Shown one piece after another: positions 17,209 to 24,785 of a stretch of 64,000 nucleotides of DNA. Origin of the DNA: Bacteroidota bacterium (GTDB taxonomy: Bacteria > Bacteroidota > Bacteroidia > Bacteroidales > UBA12481); assembly GCA_018669475.1 (NCBI GenBank), contig JABHCC010000095.1, forward strand, positions 1-64,000. Reading direction: 5' to 3'. Both the position numbers and the translations under genes were made by a program. Within the stretch, counting starts at the first letter, position 1. Every line of letters begins with the position of its first letter. The notes below the pieces were generated by a model. That model did no database searches. It had not been told where the DNA came from and was given only the letters and a program-made list of their open reading frames with translations.

Positions 17209-17299
17209 CACCGTAGAGAAAACAATAAAATACTGTTCAGTTTTTGAACAATCCTTGCTATTATCCTCCACAAGTCCACTAATTTTGAAAAAAATCAGA

Positions 17300-18661
17300 A
17301 TGCCAAAAAGAATATTAATTATTGATGATAACAGCTCACTGCTGGCTTCTCTTCGCATTTTGTTGAAAAGAGAATTCGATCAGATAGATATTGCAATTCA
17401 TCCAGACCATGTATTTTCAGCCATTGCTGAAAATCAATACCATGTAATTCTCCTCGACATGAATTTTAAAACCGGACAAACAAGCGGTAATGAGGGCTTA
17501 TTTTGGCTGGGAAAAATAAAAAAGTCAGATCCTGATGCTGTAGTAATTCTTATGACTGCATTTGGTGAAGTAGATCTGGCCATTGAGGCAATGAAGCGGG
17601 GAGCATTTGATTTCGTGCAGAAACCCTGGGAAACTGAAAAACTCACCGCAACACTGAGGGCTGGAGTGATATATAGAAAGTCAAGAGTAGAATTAACAAA
17701 GCTTAAACAAAAAAATCAGTCGAGAAATATAGACCTAAACCTGGCTGAGGATAGCTTCATTGGACAATCAGCTGAGATAACAAAGTTGCGCACAACAATA
17801 GCAAAGGTCTCAAAAACAGATGCCAGCATATTAATATGCGGTGAAAATGGAACAGGCAAAGAGCTCGTTGCCCGTGAGATCCACCGCCTTTCAAATCGGA
17901 AAAATGGCCCCTTCGTGGAGGTGGACATAGGGGCTTTACAAGAAAGCCTGTTCGAAAGCGAACTATTTGGACATGTAAAAGGGGCTTATACAGGAGCAGA
18001 AAAAGACAGAGTTGGTCGTTTTGAATATGCCGATGGAGGATCTCTTTTTCTGGATGAAATAGGAAATTTGTCCCTTAATCAACAGGTTAAACTATTGAGG
18101 GTAATACAGGAAAAGGTCATTTACCGGGTTGGCTCCAATGAAGCCCGACCAATTGATATTCGTCTTATCTGTGCCACAAATCTCCAGCTAGACAAAGCTG
18201 TGACAGAATCAATATTCAGAGAAGACCTCTATTACAGGATCAATACCATTGAAATTGAAGTACCTCCATTACGGCATCGTAAGACAGACATCTTACTTCT
18301 TTGTGAATACTATTTGCAAAAGTTTGCTTCGAAATACCAGAATACCAAATTGAAAATAGACAAACAAGCATTAGATCAATTATGCGAATACAGCTGGCCT
18401 GGCAATGTACGCGAGTTGCGCCATGCTATTGAGCGGGCCGTTATATTATCAGATCATCCTGTTCTTATGATTAACAGTTTCCAATTAAAAGATAATCAGT
18501 CATTGAAATATGCCATGGATAGCTATAATCTTGAGCAAGTGGAAAAAGCTGTTATCACAAGCGCATTGGAGAGATACCCTGGTAATATGTCAAAAGTTGC
18601 CCAGGTTTTAAGTATTAGCAGAACAACCCTTTACGCCAAAATTCGCAAATATGGTCTTTAA
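17300..18661 (+). CDS. Sigma-54-dependent response regulator (NtrC family)
   Basis: 453 residues from ATG 17300; MPKRILIIDDN is the standard start of a receiver, so the longer frame is rejected. Receiver domain 1-120 with acidic D9/D10, phospho-acceptor D53 and K108. AAA+ sigma-54 activator domain about 150-385: Walker A GENGTGKE (181-188), the sigma-54 contact loop GAYTGA (228-233, Tyr replacing the usual Phe), Walker B GGSLFLDEIG. C-terminal Fis-type helix-turn-helix (AQVLSISRTTLYAKIRKYGL). It activates RpoN promoters when phosphorylated by its partner kinase, whose gene overlaps by 11 nt. Candidate targets lie at 20081 and 22661. Confidence 0.95.
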   Translation: MPKRILIIDDNSSLLASLRILLKREFDQIDIAIHPDHVFSAIAENQYHVILLDMNFKTGQTSGNEGLFWLGKIKKSDPDAVVILMTAFGEVDLAIEAMKRGAFDFVQKPWETEKLTATLRAGVIYRKSRVELTKLKQKNQSRNIDLNLAEDSFIGQSAEITKLRTTIAKVSKTDASILICGENGTGKELVAREIHRLSNRKNGPFVEVDIGALQESLFESELFGHVKGAYTGAEKDRVGRFEYADGGSLFLDEIGNLSLNQQVKLLRVIQEKVIYRVGSNEARPIDIRLICATNLQLDKAVTESIFREDLYYRINTIEIEVPPLRHRKTDILLLCEYYLQKFASKYQNTKLKIDKQALDQLCEYSWPGNVRELRHAIERAVILSDHPVLMINSFQLKDNQSLKYAMDSYNLEQVEKAVITSALERYPGNMSKVAQVLSISRTTLYAKIRKYGL

Positions 18662-20054
18662 TCGCTTCCTCTGGCTTCTCATTCTCAGGATTAGTGTAAT
18701 TGTAGCTACAGCACTCGCTTTCTCAATTATACTTACTATCCCGGATCGACCGTTCACCAAAGCATTCTTTGTTTTGTTGATTATCACAGAAGCGGTTTGG
18801 CTATACTTACTGGTTAGCAGAACAAATCGGGAGCTCACACGCTTCCTGATCAGTCTTGAAGAGAATGATACCACAAGATCTCTTACCAAAAACAGAACTG
18901 ACCGGCTTTTCTCAGGATTGCATGAGTCTTTTGAGCGGATAATGACTAAACTATTTGATCTCAGAGAACTTAAGGAGAAACAAAGTCAATTATATCAAAG
19001 TATTCTAAAACAAACAGGATCAGGGTATTTGCTAATAAATCCGGCAGGTGAAATAGAAATCTCTAACCAAACTGCGACCCATCTTCTTGGAACAGGACAT
19101 TTGAAAACAATTGATGAACTGGAACAAATTCAAGCAGGTTCAAAAGAGTTTATTGATAAGCTTGTTCCCGGACAATCGAAAGTCTGGAATTTTTTTCGTC
19201 ATGGTAAGCAATATGAACTACTTATTCATGCGGCAAGGCTAAAAAGTGGTGATACGGATTTTAAACTTATTTCAATTCACAACATTCAGAAACAATTAAG
19301 CGAGTCAGCGTTCAAATCTCATCGTAATATCATACGAATCCTTACTCATGAAATCAATAATACTTTAACTCCAATAACAACCCTGACGGATGCTTTAATA
19401 AAAAACATCAATCATCCTGACCATGAAGAAGTTGATTGGAAAGACATGACTGAAGGACTTGATATTATTCGTGATCGCAGCAATAGCATTCTCATGTTCC
19501 TGAACAATTACCGCAAGCTATCTCATCTTCCTAAACCAAAGATTGAGTCAGTATCAGTTGCTGACTTACTTGAAAGCCTGATTCATGTACACCAATCAAA
19601 CTGGATGGATAAGTGCATCAGAGTTCAAACCCGTATATCAGATACTTCACCTGAATTTATTGATGCTGACCGCGAACAGCTATTTCAGGTCCTTTCTAAT
19701 ATTATCATCAATGCCGAGGAGGCTATTACCGGTGAAAAAAACAAGGAAATTGAAATAGACTATTACTGCAACAAAGAGAACCACGCCGTGATAAGTATTC
19801 AGGATTATGGCCCCGGGATAGCTCTAGAAATTCGTGAGAAGCTTTTCATCCCATTCTTCAGTACAAAACCATCGGGCAGTGGTATCGGATTAAGTCTGTC
19901 ACATCAGATCATGCAAAACCATGAAGGGAGTATTGAAGTTTTATCCGAACCAGGGAAAGGCACACAGATCTTACTTGTGTTCAAACCCTTTAATGCTTGT
20001 AAGAAAACTGAACAAATCAACAATCCATCAGACAATACAACCAATGCCAACTAA
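18651..20054 (+). CDS. Sensor histidine kinase, partner of the sigma-54 regulator
   Basis: 467 residues. Two transmembrane helices near the N-terminus (about 6-30 and 37-55) with only a few residues between them, so there is almost no periplasmic sensor; a PAS-like domain follows (about 115-210). HisKA box RILTHEINNTLTPI with H233, then HATPase motifs: NIIINAEEAI (N box), DYGPGI (G1) and SGIGLSLS (G2). This resembles NtrY-type kinases. It probably senses a cytoplasmic or membrane signal. It overlaps the regulator gene by 11 nt, which indicates coupled translation. Confidence 0.93.
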   Translation: MVFNRFLWLLILRISVIVATALAFSIILTIPDRPFTKAFFVLLIITEAVWLYLLVSRTNRELTRFLISLEENDTTRSLTKNRTDRLFSGLHESFERIMTKLFDLRELKEKQSQLYQSILKQTGSGYLLINPAGEIEISNQTATHLLGTGHLKTIDELEQIQAGSKEFIDKLVPGQSKVWNFFRHGKQYELLIHAARLKSGDTDFKLISIHNIQKQLSESAFKSHRNIIRILTHEINNTLTPITTLTDALIKNINHPDHEEVDWKDMTEGLDIIRDRSNSILMFLNNYRKLSHLPKPKIESVSVADLLESLIHVHQSNWMDKCIRVQTRISDTSPEFIDADREQLFQVLSNIIINAEEAITGEKNKEIEIDYYCNKENHAVISIQDYGPGIALEIREKLFIPFFSTKPSGSGIGLSLSHQIMQNHEGSIEVLSEPGKGTQILLVFKPFNACKKTEQINNPSDNTTNAN

Positions 20055-20117: not shown

Positions 20118-22511
20118 ATGTTTTACAATTATCTCAAAATGACTTTGCGTGCGATTACCAGAAACCTGGCTTATTCTCTTAGCTATATTCTGGGATTATC
20201 GGTTGGCCTGGCTGCTCTGATACTGATCGCTCTGTACGTACAATTCGAGTTTAGTTATGATAAAAACCTGCCGGATTCAGATCTGATATACAGAGTAACC
20301 ACGGATATGCGATGGCCAGATGGTCAGCACCAGGAAGTTGCTGTTTGTATGGGCCCTCTACCCTATTTTTTAAACACAGAATATCCTGAAGTTGTGGGTT
20401 CAGCGCGGTTCTTTTTTGAGAATCCTATTCTGGTGCAAGCAATTAATTCTGGTGCAGGTATTATTTCTGATGGCAGCTATGAGGAAGATATAATTGTAGC
20501 TGATTCGAGTTTTTTCTCTGTTTTTGAATTCCCAATGATCTATGGTAATCCAGATGAGATTCTCAGGCAACCTGATCAACTAATTATAACTGAGAAGATA
20601 AGCCAAAAATATTTTGGTAGCGAAAATCCTATTGGGAAAGAAATGTTGCTAAATGCCCGCGAGAGGCTAACAATTTCAGGTGTGATGTGTGATCTGCCGG
20701 AGAATTCACATCTGAAGATCTCGATGATTCGCTCAGCAGGTTCTGATCCGGCATTTTCGCTGGACAACTTGAGGAACATAAGCAATTTTGGATATATCCG
20801 TTTTCAGCCAGGTATTGATATTGAGGCCTTCAAAGAGCAGATTCCCGATTTCGAATCCAAATACATGGGACCTTTCGATGATAACACTGACATTCGACTT
20901 CAAAAGATGCAAGATATCCATTTGCATAATGATCGTATTTATGACAGAGTTGTTGAATCAGATTACAAAAGCGTATTGATCATCGGAGCAATTGGTATAA
21001 TAATATTACTCATTGCCTGTATTAATTTCATTAACCTGACAACAGCAAGATCAGCATACAGAGTACGGGAAGTTGGAATCAGAAAAGTTACAGGAGCCAG
21101 CCGCAAACAGCTTATGGGCCAATTCATTGGTGAAGCCATGCTAATAACAACGATTTCATTATTTCTGGCTGTTGTTCTCGTTGAGACATTTCTTCCCGAA
21201 TTCAGAAATATCACTGAAACTAACATCGCTCTGGATTACAAGGCAAGTATTCATTATCTGATCGGGCTAGTTCTCATTGTAGGTGGGCTCTCCGGAGTGT
21301 ACCCTGCCTTTATACTGTCAGGATTTAAGCCAATAAGCCTCTTCAGAGGATTCACCGCAAATCGCAAAGGTAAAGGCGGATTTCAGAAAACTCTTGTTGT
21401 TATACAATTTAGTATCACTATAGCATTAGTCATAAGTATGGGTGTGATTCTTAAGCAAATGCATTTCATCAACTCTCAGGATTTAGGTTACAAACACCAT
21501 GATGTTGTATATATTGATCTCCCATCAGGTACTTCGGCGAATACACCCCGTGTACTCAAAGAAAAACTTAAGAGCCATTCGGATATTGAGATGGTCAGTA
21601 CAAGCAATCTGATGCCAGGAAGAGTACCATGGGGAGATCACTTTATCCCTGAAGGATCAGAAAACTGGTCACCACATAGGTATATCAATGTTGATTATGA
21701 TTACTTGCCCTTTTTCGGCATAAAACTGATTGAAGGTAGAAATTTCAGTGCAGATTTTGGTACTGACTCTACATCTCTCATCATTAATGAATCAACTGCT
21801 AAAGAATTTGGATGGTCGCTAGCAGAATCCATCGGGAAGGAAATAAAATGGAATTTCGCAAGCTCTTATGATAATCAAATCACCGGAGAGGTAATTGGAG
21901 TAATGAAGGATTTCCATGTGACCTCATTGCATGATAAGATCGAGAGTCTGATTTTTACTATGAATCAGGATTACAATCCAGTTCTGGCGGTACGCCTGGC
22001 ACCAGGCTACAACAAACAAACACTTGGTTTTATAAAAGAAATGTTCAAAGATTTACTTCCAGAGCACCCTTTCGATCCAATATTTCTAAGTGAGGAAATC
22101 AATATGCTCTATAAAAAAGATCATCAATTTCTTCAGATTATCAAATATTTCGCGCTGATTGCCATATTCATTGCCACATTGGGCCTTATTGGATTATCTA
22201 CTTTTCTAATTCAGCGAAAGTTTAAAGAATTGGGAATCCGCAAAACTTTTGGCGCCAGTTCTTTGCAAATACTGCTTTTACTAACCCTTCAATTCGAGAA
22301 ATGGGTGCTGATAGCTAATCTATTTGCCTGGCCTATAGCCTATTTTTTCATGAGAAATTGGCTCAGTCAATTTGCTTATAAGACAGATCTTTCCTTATGG
22401 ATCTTTATTCTGGGAAGTCTTTTCAGCCTGACACTTGCTTTCCTTACTGTTGGTTATCAAGCCTGGAAAGCATCCGGATTGAAGCCCATTTCAGCCATTC
22501 GCTACGAATAG
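20118..22511 (+). CDS. FtsX/MacB-type ABC transporter permease
   Basis: 797 residues from ATG 20118; MFYNYLKMTLRAITRNLAYSLSYILGLSVG is the usual start of this Bacteroidota family, so a longer frame is rejected. Layout: TM1 (about 20-42), MacB-type periplasmic domain (about 45-285), three FtsX helices (about 290-415), a second TM and periplasmic domain (about 430-680), and three C-terminal helices. FtsX motifs NLTTARSAYRVREVGIRKVTGA and IQRKFKELGIRKTFGA are clear. It is a duplicated permease of the mechanotransmission type, used for efflux or lipoprotein handling. No ATPase gene is next to it. The kinase gene ends 63 nt upstream. Confidence 0.92.
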   Translation: MFYNYLKMTLRAITRNLAYSLSYILGLSVGLAALILIALYVQFEFSYDKNLPDSDLIYRVTTDMRWPDGQHQEVAVCMGPLPYFLNTEYPEVVGSARFFFENPILVQAINSGAGIISDGSYEEDIIVADSSFFSVFEFPMIYGNPDEILRQPDQLIITEKISQKYFGSENPIGKEMLLNARERLTISGVMCDLPENSHLKISMIRSAGSDPAFSLDNLRNISNFGYIRFQPGIDIEAFKEQIPDFESKYMGPFDDNTDIRLQKMQDIHLHNDRIYDRVVESDYKSVLIIGAIGIIILLIACINFINLTTARSAYRVREVGIRKVTGASRKQLMGQFIGEAMLITTISLFLAVVLVETFLPEFRNITETNIALDYKASIHYLIGLVLIVGGLSGVYPAFILSGFKPISLFRGFTANRKGKGGFQKTLVVIQFSITIALVISMGVILKQMHFINSQDLGYKHHDVVYIDLPSGTSANTPRVLKEKLKSHSDIEMVSTSNLMPGRVPWGDHFIPEGSENWSPHRYINVDYDYLPFFGIKLIEGRNFSADFGTDSTSLIINESTAKEFGWSLAESIGKEIKWNFASSYDNQITGEVIGVMKDFHVTSLHDKIESLIFTMNQDYNPVLAVRLAPGYNKQTLGFIKEMFKDLLPEHPFDPIFLSEEINMLYKKDHQFLQIIKYFALIAIFIATLGLIGLSTFLIQRKFKELGIRKTFGASSLQILLLLTLQFEKWVLIANLFAWPIAYFFMRNWLSQFAYKTDLSLWIFILGSLFSLTLAFLTVGYQAWKASGLKPISAIRYE

Positions 22512-22588: not shown

Positions 22589-22640
22589 TAGAATCAAAGG
22601 TTTAGATAGTGAAGTTGTTTTTGTTTGTTGTTTGATTCTA
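22589..22640. promoter_or_regulatory. 10-bp inverted repeat, candidate activator binding site
   Basis: TAGAATCAAA (22589-22598) and TTTGATTCTA (22631-22640) are exact inverted repeats 32 nt apart. The centre is about 73 nt before the predicted start from the sigma-54 promoter at 22661, a plausible place for an NtrC-family activator. Function is inferred from position only. Confidence 0.45.
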
Positions 22641-22660
22641 AAAAATACTGTTGTTTTCTT

Positions 22661-22675
22661 TGGCATAGTTATTGC
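22661..22675 (+). promoter_or_regulatory. Sigma-54 (RpoN) promoter
   Basis: TGGCATAGTTATTGC contains -24 TGGCA and -12 TTGC with exactly ten bases between GG and GC, the RpoN consensus. No protein gene follows on this strand before the dnaG 3' end; what follows is a short stretch ending in a strong terminator. Predicted start is near 22687. Confidence 0.65.
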
Positions 22676-22686
22676 GTGGTAGTTTA

Positions 22687-22762
22687 CGGTTTAGGTTAAT
22701 AAAGTTAGCAGCAGTGTTCCGCCCAGGTGACTTCCCAAGTCCCCGGGCGGAACTTTTTTTTT
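22687..22762 (+). ncRNA. Candidate sigma-54-dependent small RNA (~76 nt)
   Basis: Bounded by the RpoN promoter at 22661 and the terminator at 22716-22762. It contains a 5' unstructured part of about 29 nt (from ACGGTTTAGGTTAATAAAG) and a double hairpin with T-tail. No start codon with a useful frame is present, so it is unlikely to be a peptide gene. It lies just past a two-component system whose regulator needs sigma-54, which suggests that regulator controls it. Existence is predicted from signals only. Alternative: it is just the terminator region of the permease transcript. Confidence 0.5.
22716..22762 (+). terminator. Intrinsic terminator with nested stem
   Basis: Outer perfect 9-bp stem GTTCCGCCC / GGGCGGAAC (22716-22724 and 22745-22753), an inner 5-bp stem GACTT-CCC-AAGTC in the loop, then nine T. 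Works for plus-strand transcripts. Confidence 0.85.
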
Positions 22763-22765
22763 GCC

Positions 22766-22836
22766 GAAGACTGAAGACTGATGACTTTCTTGCTGAAGAC
22801 TGAAGACTGAAAACTGAAAACTGAAAACTGAAAACT
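22766..22836. repeat. Tandem array A5, period 7
   Basis: Heptamers GAAGACT and GAAAACT (with GATGACT and one 8-mer interruption), ending five bases from the dnaG stop codon (22842-22844). Its reverse complement TTTTCAG/TCTTCAG is the same heptamer as in the first block of A4. Confidence 0.9.
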
Positions 22837-22841
22837 TCTTC

Positions 22842-24785
22842 TTAAAGTATAATCCGATTCAGATCCTGCGAAATTTGCTTTCTAAGCTCATCGAGATTTT
22901 TCTTCTGCTTGAGTAATTCCATTATCCCGTCAATATCACCCGCTTTTTGAAGACGCTCAATTTCTTCATCAATTTCAGCAACCAGGCGTTTTACCTGTCG
23001 GCTTCTAAATGAGATAATACTTTCGGGGACTACTTCCTTAAGCATACTACTTTCAGTTCTGATGTAAGCACCTCCCTTTTCATGGATTTTACTGAGTTCA
23101 TAGCCCGGACTAAAAATATCGACCGCAAGGCTGCTGATTTCAGGATCCTCATGATTGATAAAAGTGTTTTGAAAATGAAAACCAGGTTGATTCCATTTTT
23201 CCCGGATGATCCCAAATACCTTCTTATATACAGACACATGAAAATCCATCGGATCGCTCTCAAACTCTTGCAATATAAAGTCAATAACTGTCACTTTTAT
23301 CGGATCATCTTTGGGTGTGGGCTGAACCTCGGTAATTACCCTGTCTCCATGCATAAGCATAATCCTTATTATCTCCTTTTCCTCGGCATTAAACAGGATC
23401 TCCTTTCCCGGGCTATACTGTTTGGGAGCGACTTTCTTGGGTTCAGGGGGTAGATACTCTCCTCTGCGCCTTCTTTGTTCGTATTGCCGACGTTTTATCT
23501 TGGCTACCTCTTCAAACAAAATATTTTCCTCAACTTTGAAGATCTTGCTACATTCTGCCAGATACAAACTTCTTTCAAGTCTGTCAGGAATGGCGGCAAC
23601 TGACCTGACAACTTCAGAAATCAGATTGGCCTTTCTTACCGGATCATCACCTACTCCTGATGATAACAGCTTGGCTTTAAAACTGATAAAATCCTGCTCA
23701 TTCTGATCAATAAATTCCAGCAATTCAGATGAACTACGGGCATGAGCGAATGAATCGGGATCTTCACCATCCGGCAGGGGAACAACACGAACATGCATGC
23801 CCTGTTCAAGTATAATATCTATACCTCTCAGGGAAGCTTTTACGCCGGCTTCATCACCATCATATATAATGGTGACATTGCGTGTGAAGCGACGAATAAG
23901 CCGAACCTGATCCTCGGTGAGTGAGGTGCCTGATGAAGCCACAACATTCTCAATACCCGACTGATGCATAGACAATACATCAGTGTAACCCTCAACCAGA
24001 TAGCATTTATCAGCCTTTGCCATTGCATTACGGGCATAATATATGCCGTATAAACTCCGAGACTTGTGGTAAATATCTGATTCAGGACTGTTGAGATACT
24101 TGGCCATCTTGGTATCTGTACGTAACGTACGTCCGCCAAAGCCAATCACCCGGCCAGACAGAGAGTGAATAGGAAAAATCACTCGTCCGGCAAAGCGATC
24201 GAAATGCCTGTCGTTTTTCTCGATAGTCAGCCCTGTTTTTACAAGGTAATTTATTTTGTAGCCATTTTTCTGAGCCTCCTCGGTAAATGCATTTCTTTTG
24301 TCAAGGGAATATCCAAGCTGAAACTTATCCAATACTTCTCGTCTGAATCCCCGTTCCTTGAAATAGCTAAGTCCGACAGCCTGTCCTTCTTCAGATTCAA
24401 GAAGCGTTCGGGTGAAATATTTTTGTCCGTAGGCTGTAACTACCATCATTGATTCCCGCTCATTCTTCTGCTGTATCTCTTCGGCCGTTTCCTCCGTTTC
24501 TTCCACCTCAATATGATACTTCTTTGCCAGTGTTTTCAGAGCCTCCGGATAAGTGATATGTTCATGCTCCATCAAAAAATTGACAACATTTCCACCTTTT
24601 CCACAGCCAAAGCATTTGAAAATTCCTTTCGAGGGAGAAACAGTAAATGATGGGGTTTTCTCGTTATGGAAAGGACACAAACCCAGCATATTAACCCCAC
24701 GTTTTTTGAGGCTCACGAAATCACCTACAACCTCAGTAATTTCGGCCGCATTCATTATTCTGTCTATGGTGGCATGGTCAATCAT
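22842..24785 (-). CDS. dnaG: DNA primase
   Basis: 647 residues. DnaG makes RNA primers for DNA replication at the fork with DnaB. N-terminal CHC2 zinc finger with C37, H40, C58 and C61 (LCPFHNEKTPS, KCFGCGKGG); central TOPRIM core (about 200-370, with FGGRTL, YLVEGYTDVLSMHQSG and TIIYDGDEAGVKASLRG); C-terminal helicase-binding region ending in a coiled coil (EIDEEIERLQKAGDIDG, LLKQKKNLDELRKQ). Full length. It is convergent with the sigma-54 region, and array A5 sits at its 3' end. Confidence 0.97.
   Translation of the reverse strand: MIDHATIDRIMNAAEITEVVGDFVSLKKRGVNMLGLCPFHNEKTPSFTVSPSKGIFKCFGCGKGGNVVNFLMEHEHITYPEALKTLAKKYHIEVEETEETAEEIQQKNERESMMVVTAYGQKYFTRTLLESEEGQAVGLSYFKERGFRREVLDKFQLGYSLDKRNAFTEEAQKNGYKINYLVKTGLTIEKNDRHFDRFAGRVIFPIHSLSGRVIGFGGRTLRTDTKMAKYLNSPESDIYHKSRSLYGIYYARNAMAKADKCYLVEGYTDVLSMHQSGIENVVASSGTSLTEDQVRLIRRFTRNVTIIYDGDEAGVKASLRGIDIILEQGMHVRVVPLPDGEDPDSFAHARSSSELLEFIDQNEQDFISFKAKLLSSGVGDDPVRKANLISEVVRSVAAIPDRLERSLYLAECSKIFKVEENILFEEVAKIKRRQYEQRRRRGEYLPPEPKKVAPKQYSPGKEILFNAEEKEIIRIMLMHGDRVITEVQPTPKDDPIKVTVIDFILQEFESDPMDFHVSVYKKVFGIIREKWNQPGFHFQNTFINHEDPEISSLAVDIFSPGYELSKIHEKGGAYIRTESSMLKEVVPESIISFRSRQVKRLVAEIDEEIERLQKAGDIDGIMELLKQKKNLDELRKQISQDLNRIIL

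Follow-up and report, generated by a model that had tools for sequence, protein, structure and literature searches.

The window analysed here, a stretch of 64,000 nt from a genome of the Bacteroidales (assembly GCA_018669475.1, contig JABHCC010000095.1), carries on its forward strand the genes of an NtrC-type response regulator (17300–18661; receiver PF00072, sigma-54 interaction PF00158 with GAYTGA, Fis-type HTH PF02954), a histidine kinase (18651–20054; PF02518) and an ABC-type permease of the MacB/FtsX family (20118–22511; PF12704, PF02687). An initial annotation had placed an NtrC-type regulator, its kinase and a permease just upstream of a predicted small RNA, and the Pfam domains bore out this part of it. 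Further downstream lies a convergent dnaG primase gene (22842–24785, reverse strand; PF08275, PF01807), so that nothing is coded on the forward strand 3' of the terminator described below. A degenerate tandem repeat (GAAGACTGAAGACTGA...) occupies positions 22757–22828, between this terminator and dnaG.

The interval between the permease and primase genes contains a sigma-54-type −24/−12 motif, TGGCATAGTTATTGC (GG-N10-GC; forward strand, 22661–22675), as a putative promoter. In TTGGCATAGTTATTGC (22660–22675) both TGGCA and TTGC are present and GG is separated from GC by exactly 10 nt; the RNA start predicted from the motif is about 22687. On the same strand follow a conserved core, TAGTTTACGGTTTAGGTTAATAAAG (22680–22704), and an intrinsic terminator, GTTCCGCCCAGG ... 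CCCGGGCGGAAC then nine T (22716–22762), the arms of which (22716–22727 and 22742–22753) are paired at 11 of 12 positions. The terminator is one-way, with no T run behind the stem on the opposite strand. Folding of 22687–22763 yielded −28.6 kcal/mol (z = −4.2, equalled by none of 200 shuffles), and 5' of the terminator stem just a weak 6-bp hairpin was seen in the fold of the RNA from 22687. No open reading frame of at least 80 aa on the forward strand, nor any plausible frame, was found in the roughly 40 nt between motif and terminator. The initial annotation had described an exactly spaced GG-N10-GC motif and a noncoding stretch ending in a strong terminator; the former was confirmed at 22660–22675 and the latter by the list of open frames, the fold and the T run. 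Upstream of the promoter, an inverted repeat (TAGAATCAAA / TTTGATTCTA, 32 nt between arms) spans 22589–22640 of the forward strand. These elements and the family similarity described below are direct observations, from which we infer transcription, promoter use and targets.

No match to Rfam was obtained in the window at the gathering threshold. FopS (RF04319) was the best named Rfam match for several relatives of the window copy, with scores of 30–36 bits (36.3 for the best relative), all below the threshold of 56, and the window itself reached 17.7 bits (E = 1.3) against the curated threshold of 56 bits; because this threshold is missed, we refer to the window copy as FopS-like and not as FopS. 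In B. thetaiotaomicron, FopS is a 14-member family of RbpB-bound RNAs transcribed from primary-sigma promoters, which repress SusC-type transporters via pairing near the start codon (PMC11697453).

A sequence-only model, R1, was built from seven sequences with the window left out, three of them from Cytophagales loci that had been reached via the kinase and not via the RNA. Its sole match within the window was at 22680–22704 (22.8 bits, E = 5.8e-6), an E-value somewhat flattered by the fact that four of the seven sequences were first found by similarity to the window. A second model (R2), also made without the window, matched it with 20 bits (E = 3.5e-5). These matches bear on the explanation that a random sigma-54-like motif happens to precede an ordinary operon terminator, with no small RNA at all. 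The exact TGGCA-N6-TTGC motif is expected 0.76 times per window by chance, so that alone it proves nothing, and the Rfam score is sub-threshold; against this, the independent model R1 recognises a core of 25 nt with the E-value given above, and this core is correctly ordered and spaced relative to the terminator; we judge pure chance to be very improbable.

The family itself emerged when the DNA of the whole unit was compared with 393 genomes from the order; this returned short partial matches only, several of which had TAGTTT..GGTTTAGGTTAATAAAG right before a terminator, as did the three Cytophagales loci. Aligned members share the consensus TTTTTTCATAGTTAAGGTTTAGGTTAA, followed by a hairpin and a T-run, and across the order the family consists of a common 5' block, the core and a terminator; taking the core GGTTTAGGTTAA followed by a terminator as the mark of membership under R1 and R2, the window copy belongs to it. 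R1 had a match at E ≤ 0.01 in 130 of the 393 genomes, and a terminator lay downstream in 69 of 83 members, compared with 56 of 256 random control positions under the same loose rule. Order-wide members carry a T-run and CAT block, neither of which is present in the window copy; since they do so together with the Cytophagales sequences, the family exists independently of the window. Copies detected by R2 were also located in named Cytophagales loci and elsewhere in the window's own genome, where, in the roughly 1.77 Mb scanned (about a third), L340, L350 and the window copy were found at E < 0.001 in addition to weaker ones. RNAalifold on alignment A4 gave no consensus pair, a result with no bearing either way, as the terminators do not align. 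Taken by homology, the presence of a small RNA gene at 22661–22762 is well supported. In seven Cytophagales loci (L136, L137, L143, L146, L148, L150 and L152), a FopS-like core and terminator sit directly 3' of the gene for an ABC ATPase; the transporter operons that contain them are linked to NtrC-type regulators.

Alternatively, the RNA might lack a separate promoter and be processed from the 3' end of the regulator–kinase–permease mRNA. Some 170 nt separate the permease stop codon from the element, with no other good terminator in this interval; the own-genome copy L350 lies directly behind a stop codon, as L136 and L146 do in Cytophagales ABC operons, and among the 14 FopS RNAs of Bacteroides one is derived from a 3'-UTR (PMC11697453). 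In the window, however, the core follows a lengthy spacer and two motifs that resemble promoters, and we consider a 3'-UTR origin improbable.

The clearest indication of sigma-54 promoters came from f9, one family of the order (G019, G136, G233, G313 and G375). Here, TTGGCACR-N4-TTGC preceded CAT by 21–31 nt in 10 of the 12 copies counted, compared with 0 of 74 elsewhere and a shuffled mean of 0.0065; the 10 copies represent nine distinct promoters, one being common to tandem CATA blocks. Near-perfect sigma-54-type promoters in front of FopS-like small RNA genes were seen at L215, L217, L252, L258, L280, L282, L283 and L284, the last of these with a tandem pair of putative small RNAs behind sigma-54-like promoters. 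Judged by sequence, the f9 copies are the strongest candidates for sigma-54-driven small RNAs in this dataset, stronger than the window copy. Separately, two other sites were noted in the order: TTGGCATAGTTATTGC upstream of a small gene (L113) in another genome, and TTGGCATAGTTTTTGC between two genes (L124), likewise in another genome. The small gene is presumably related to ribosome-silencing factor, and the genes flanking L124 we take to resemble rplL and rpoB.

When the 90 nt that precede the window's core were shuffled, 2 of 100,000 base shuffles contained the exact motif (p about 2e-5). Its position is less regular: the gap to the aligned CAT position is ~2 nt, against 21–31 nt in f9, which places it ~20 nt nearer to the core, and a sigma-54 start near 22687 would leave the conserved TAGTTTA outside the RNA. 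TAGTTTA would stay within the RNA if the same FopS-like gene were instead under a primary-sigma promoter, for which TTTG (22624–22627), N18 and TACTGTTG (22646–22653) form a candidate at 22624–22653 of the forward strand, with an RNA start near 22659. The supposed sigma-54 site would then be the 5' pairing region UUUGGCAUAGUUAUUG, which contains CAUAGUUA like the family seed. Within it, CATAGTTA (22664–22671) lies inside the sigma-54 motif, 10 nt 3' of the primary-sigma box and 14 nt 5' of the position aligned with CAT; being transcribed only from the primary-sigma start, it would in that case be the seed. Most family members have a TAnnTTTG box 11–31 nt 5' of CAT, a range that includes the window box, the last G of which lies 23–24 nt 5' of the position aligned with CAT; promoters of this type drive the known FopS genes (PMC11697453), and tandem CATA blocks do occur, as in the f9 member L282. 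The window box nevertheless has one mismatch to TAnnTTTG, and a match as good was found in about 29% of shuffles, which makes it weak; the exact GG-N10-GC motif would moreover have to be a coincidence. Transcription by the primary sigma factor is accordingly a possibility to which we give limited credence. The exact motif, the adjoining activator genes and the nine f9 promoters on homologous small RNAs make sigma-54 control of the window RNA plausible, and the site at 22661–22675 is its most likely promoter, in which our confidence is at or barely above an even level. As a whole, we favour, with confidence slightly better than even, the explanation that the window holds a free-standing small RNA gene belonging to a FopS-like family found throughout Bacteroidota, with this sigma-54 site as the most likely promoter. 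Of the sigma-54-driven small RNA proposed in the initial annotation, the small RNA gene stood, by homology to the family, while sigma-54 drive of the window copy is plausible.

Proximity is the sole tie between the NtrC-type regulator and the small RNA. A perfect dyad, TGTTCAGTTTTTGAACA (17234–17250), upstream of the regulator gene is a candidate site to which the regulator may bind; four perfect matches to it were present in the genome and no copy was found beside 22661, which is a weak test, the dyad being a putative site. The window's own assembly (G000) lacks rpoN, and it also lacks asnS, a gene that all genomes of the group should have. The two genes are adjacent in relatives, rpoN being present in 9 of 12 genomes of the family to which the bacterium belongs, and the assembly is 95% complete with at least eight sigma-54 activator–kinase systems. 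Since its neighbour asnS is missing too, the absence of rpoN is probably an assembly gap. Treating it as a refutation of sigma-54 drive was considered and dropped, asnS having gone along with rpoN.

An orthologous locus was sought in genomes of the genus, family and order and in named genomes, and none was found; the best relatives of the kinase were 31–35% identical and had another layout. Among the regulator–kinase paralogues of the same genome, loose TGGCA-N7-TG-like sites precede most transporter genes, and no promoter–terminator unit like that of the window was found at any of them. Seven paralogous regulator–kinase pairs (L041–L047) are mostly divergent from ABC transporter genes, ahead of which lie loose TGGCAT-N5-TTG sites; perfect dyads of 17 bp (TGTATGAAATTCATACA, TGTAACAATTTGTTACA) were seen in some.

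Potential targets came into view in matches that lack a terminator: in 10 of 18 of these, CAT was the antisense of a start codon that opens a frame of 60 codons or more, compared with 4 of 70 matches followed by a terminator. The proteins behind these antisense starts typically have a signal peptide, and three of nine (L265, L279 and L298) contain the Pfam domain CarbopepD_reg_2, which SusC-like transporters usually carry N-terminally. Candidate target leaders complementary to the small RNA core over the start codon of genes for exported proteins were identified at L253, L265, L274, L277, L279, L298, L306, L307 and L331, with leaders such as TTAACCTAAACCTTAACTATGAAAAAA being complementary to the small RNA over some 20–27 nt. 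Such antisense matches, as evidence from sequence, are those expected of a small RNA that pairs over start codons, and they suggest translational repression of the FopS type. In the window copy, TGG occupies the aligned CAT position, which changes the region that would pair, and the targets predicted for this RNA scored no better than those of shuffles.

We propose that transcription from the sigma-54 site would yield a 76-nt RNA starting near 22687, comprising a single-stranded 5' part that bears UAGUUUACGGUUUAGGUUAAUAAAG and a strong terminator at its end. By analogy with Bacteroides FopS, and because of the antisense matches in relatives, members of the family would prevent translation of exported outer-membrane proteins by pairing over their start codons, perhaps with modulation by an RRM protein of the RbpB type; FopS-like family members thus probably silence outer-membrane protein genes. 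No Hfq-type partner is known here.

A broader reading is that part of a phylum-wide FopS-like family has moved under the control of sigma-54 and NtrC-type activators, clearly so in f9 with its nine promoters and independently in the genome studied here, such that an envelope signal sensed through the activator would shut off translation of outer-membrane proteins; we regard the case for this as evenly balanced. FopS is among the few Bacteroidota small RNAs with a worked-out mechanism and was originally presented as a family of the Bacteroidaceae with primary-sigma promoters. With relatives in Cytophagales and across the order, and with SusC-like candidate targets seen as antisense matches, the FopS-like RNA would be an ancient regulatory RNA, and sigma-54 promoters on nine f9 copies would provide a direct, testable link from NtrC-type signalling to post-transcriptional control of the outer membrane.

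Qrr, GlmY and CrcZ of gamma-proteobacteria are sigma-54-dependent small RNAs, each a short RNA behind a −24/−12 promoter with an NtrC-type activator nearby or in control. The window RNA would have the same arrangement in another phylum, with no sequence relation seen, and, if the proposed reading is true, would correspond in Bacteroidota to Qrr or GlmY. Sigma-54 promoters are real in Bacteroidota and envelope-related, as the regulon of Flavobacterium psychrophilum illustrates (PMC9723704), although that regulon, in the portion of the report considered here, lists protein genes and no sigma-54 small RNA. GibS of Bacteroides (PMC7366714) has, as is predicted for the FopS-like RNAs, a single-stranded 5' seed pairing over start codons and a terminator, but differs from the window RNA in its length of 145 nt, its extra hairpins and a second seed. 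The closest likeness is to Bacteroides FopS itself (RF04319; PMC11697453), with which the window RNA shares its short length, unstructured 5' part, GGUUAAUAAAaG-type core, terminator and multicopy nature, and relatives of the window copy show complementarity over start codons of SusC-like genes. Unlike FopS, the window copy has no CAU seed at the aligned position, and its promoter is possibly of the sigma-54 and not of the sigma-ABfr type. Whereas FopS was described in Bacteroidaceae, the family found here spans the order and reaches into Cytophagales.
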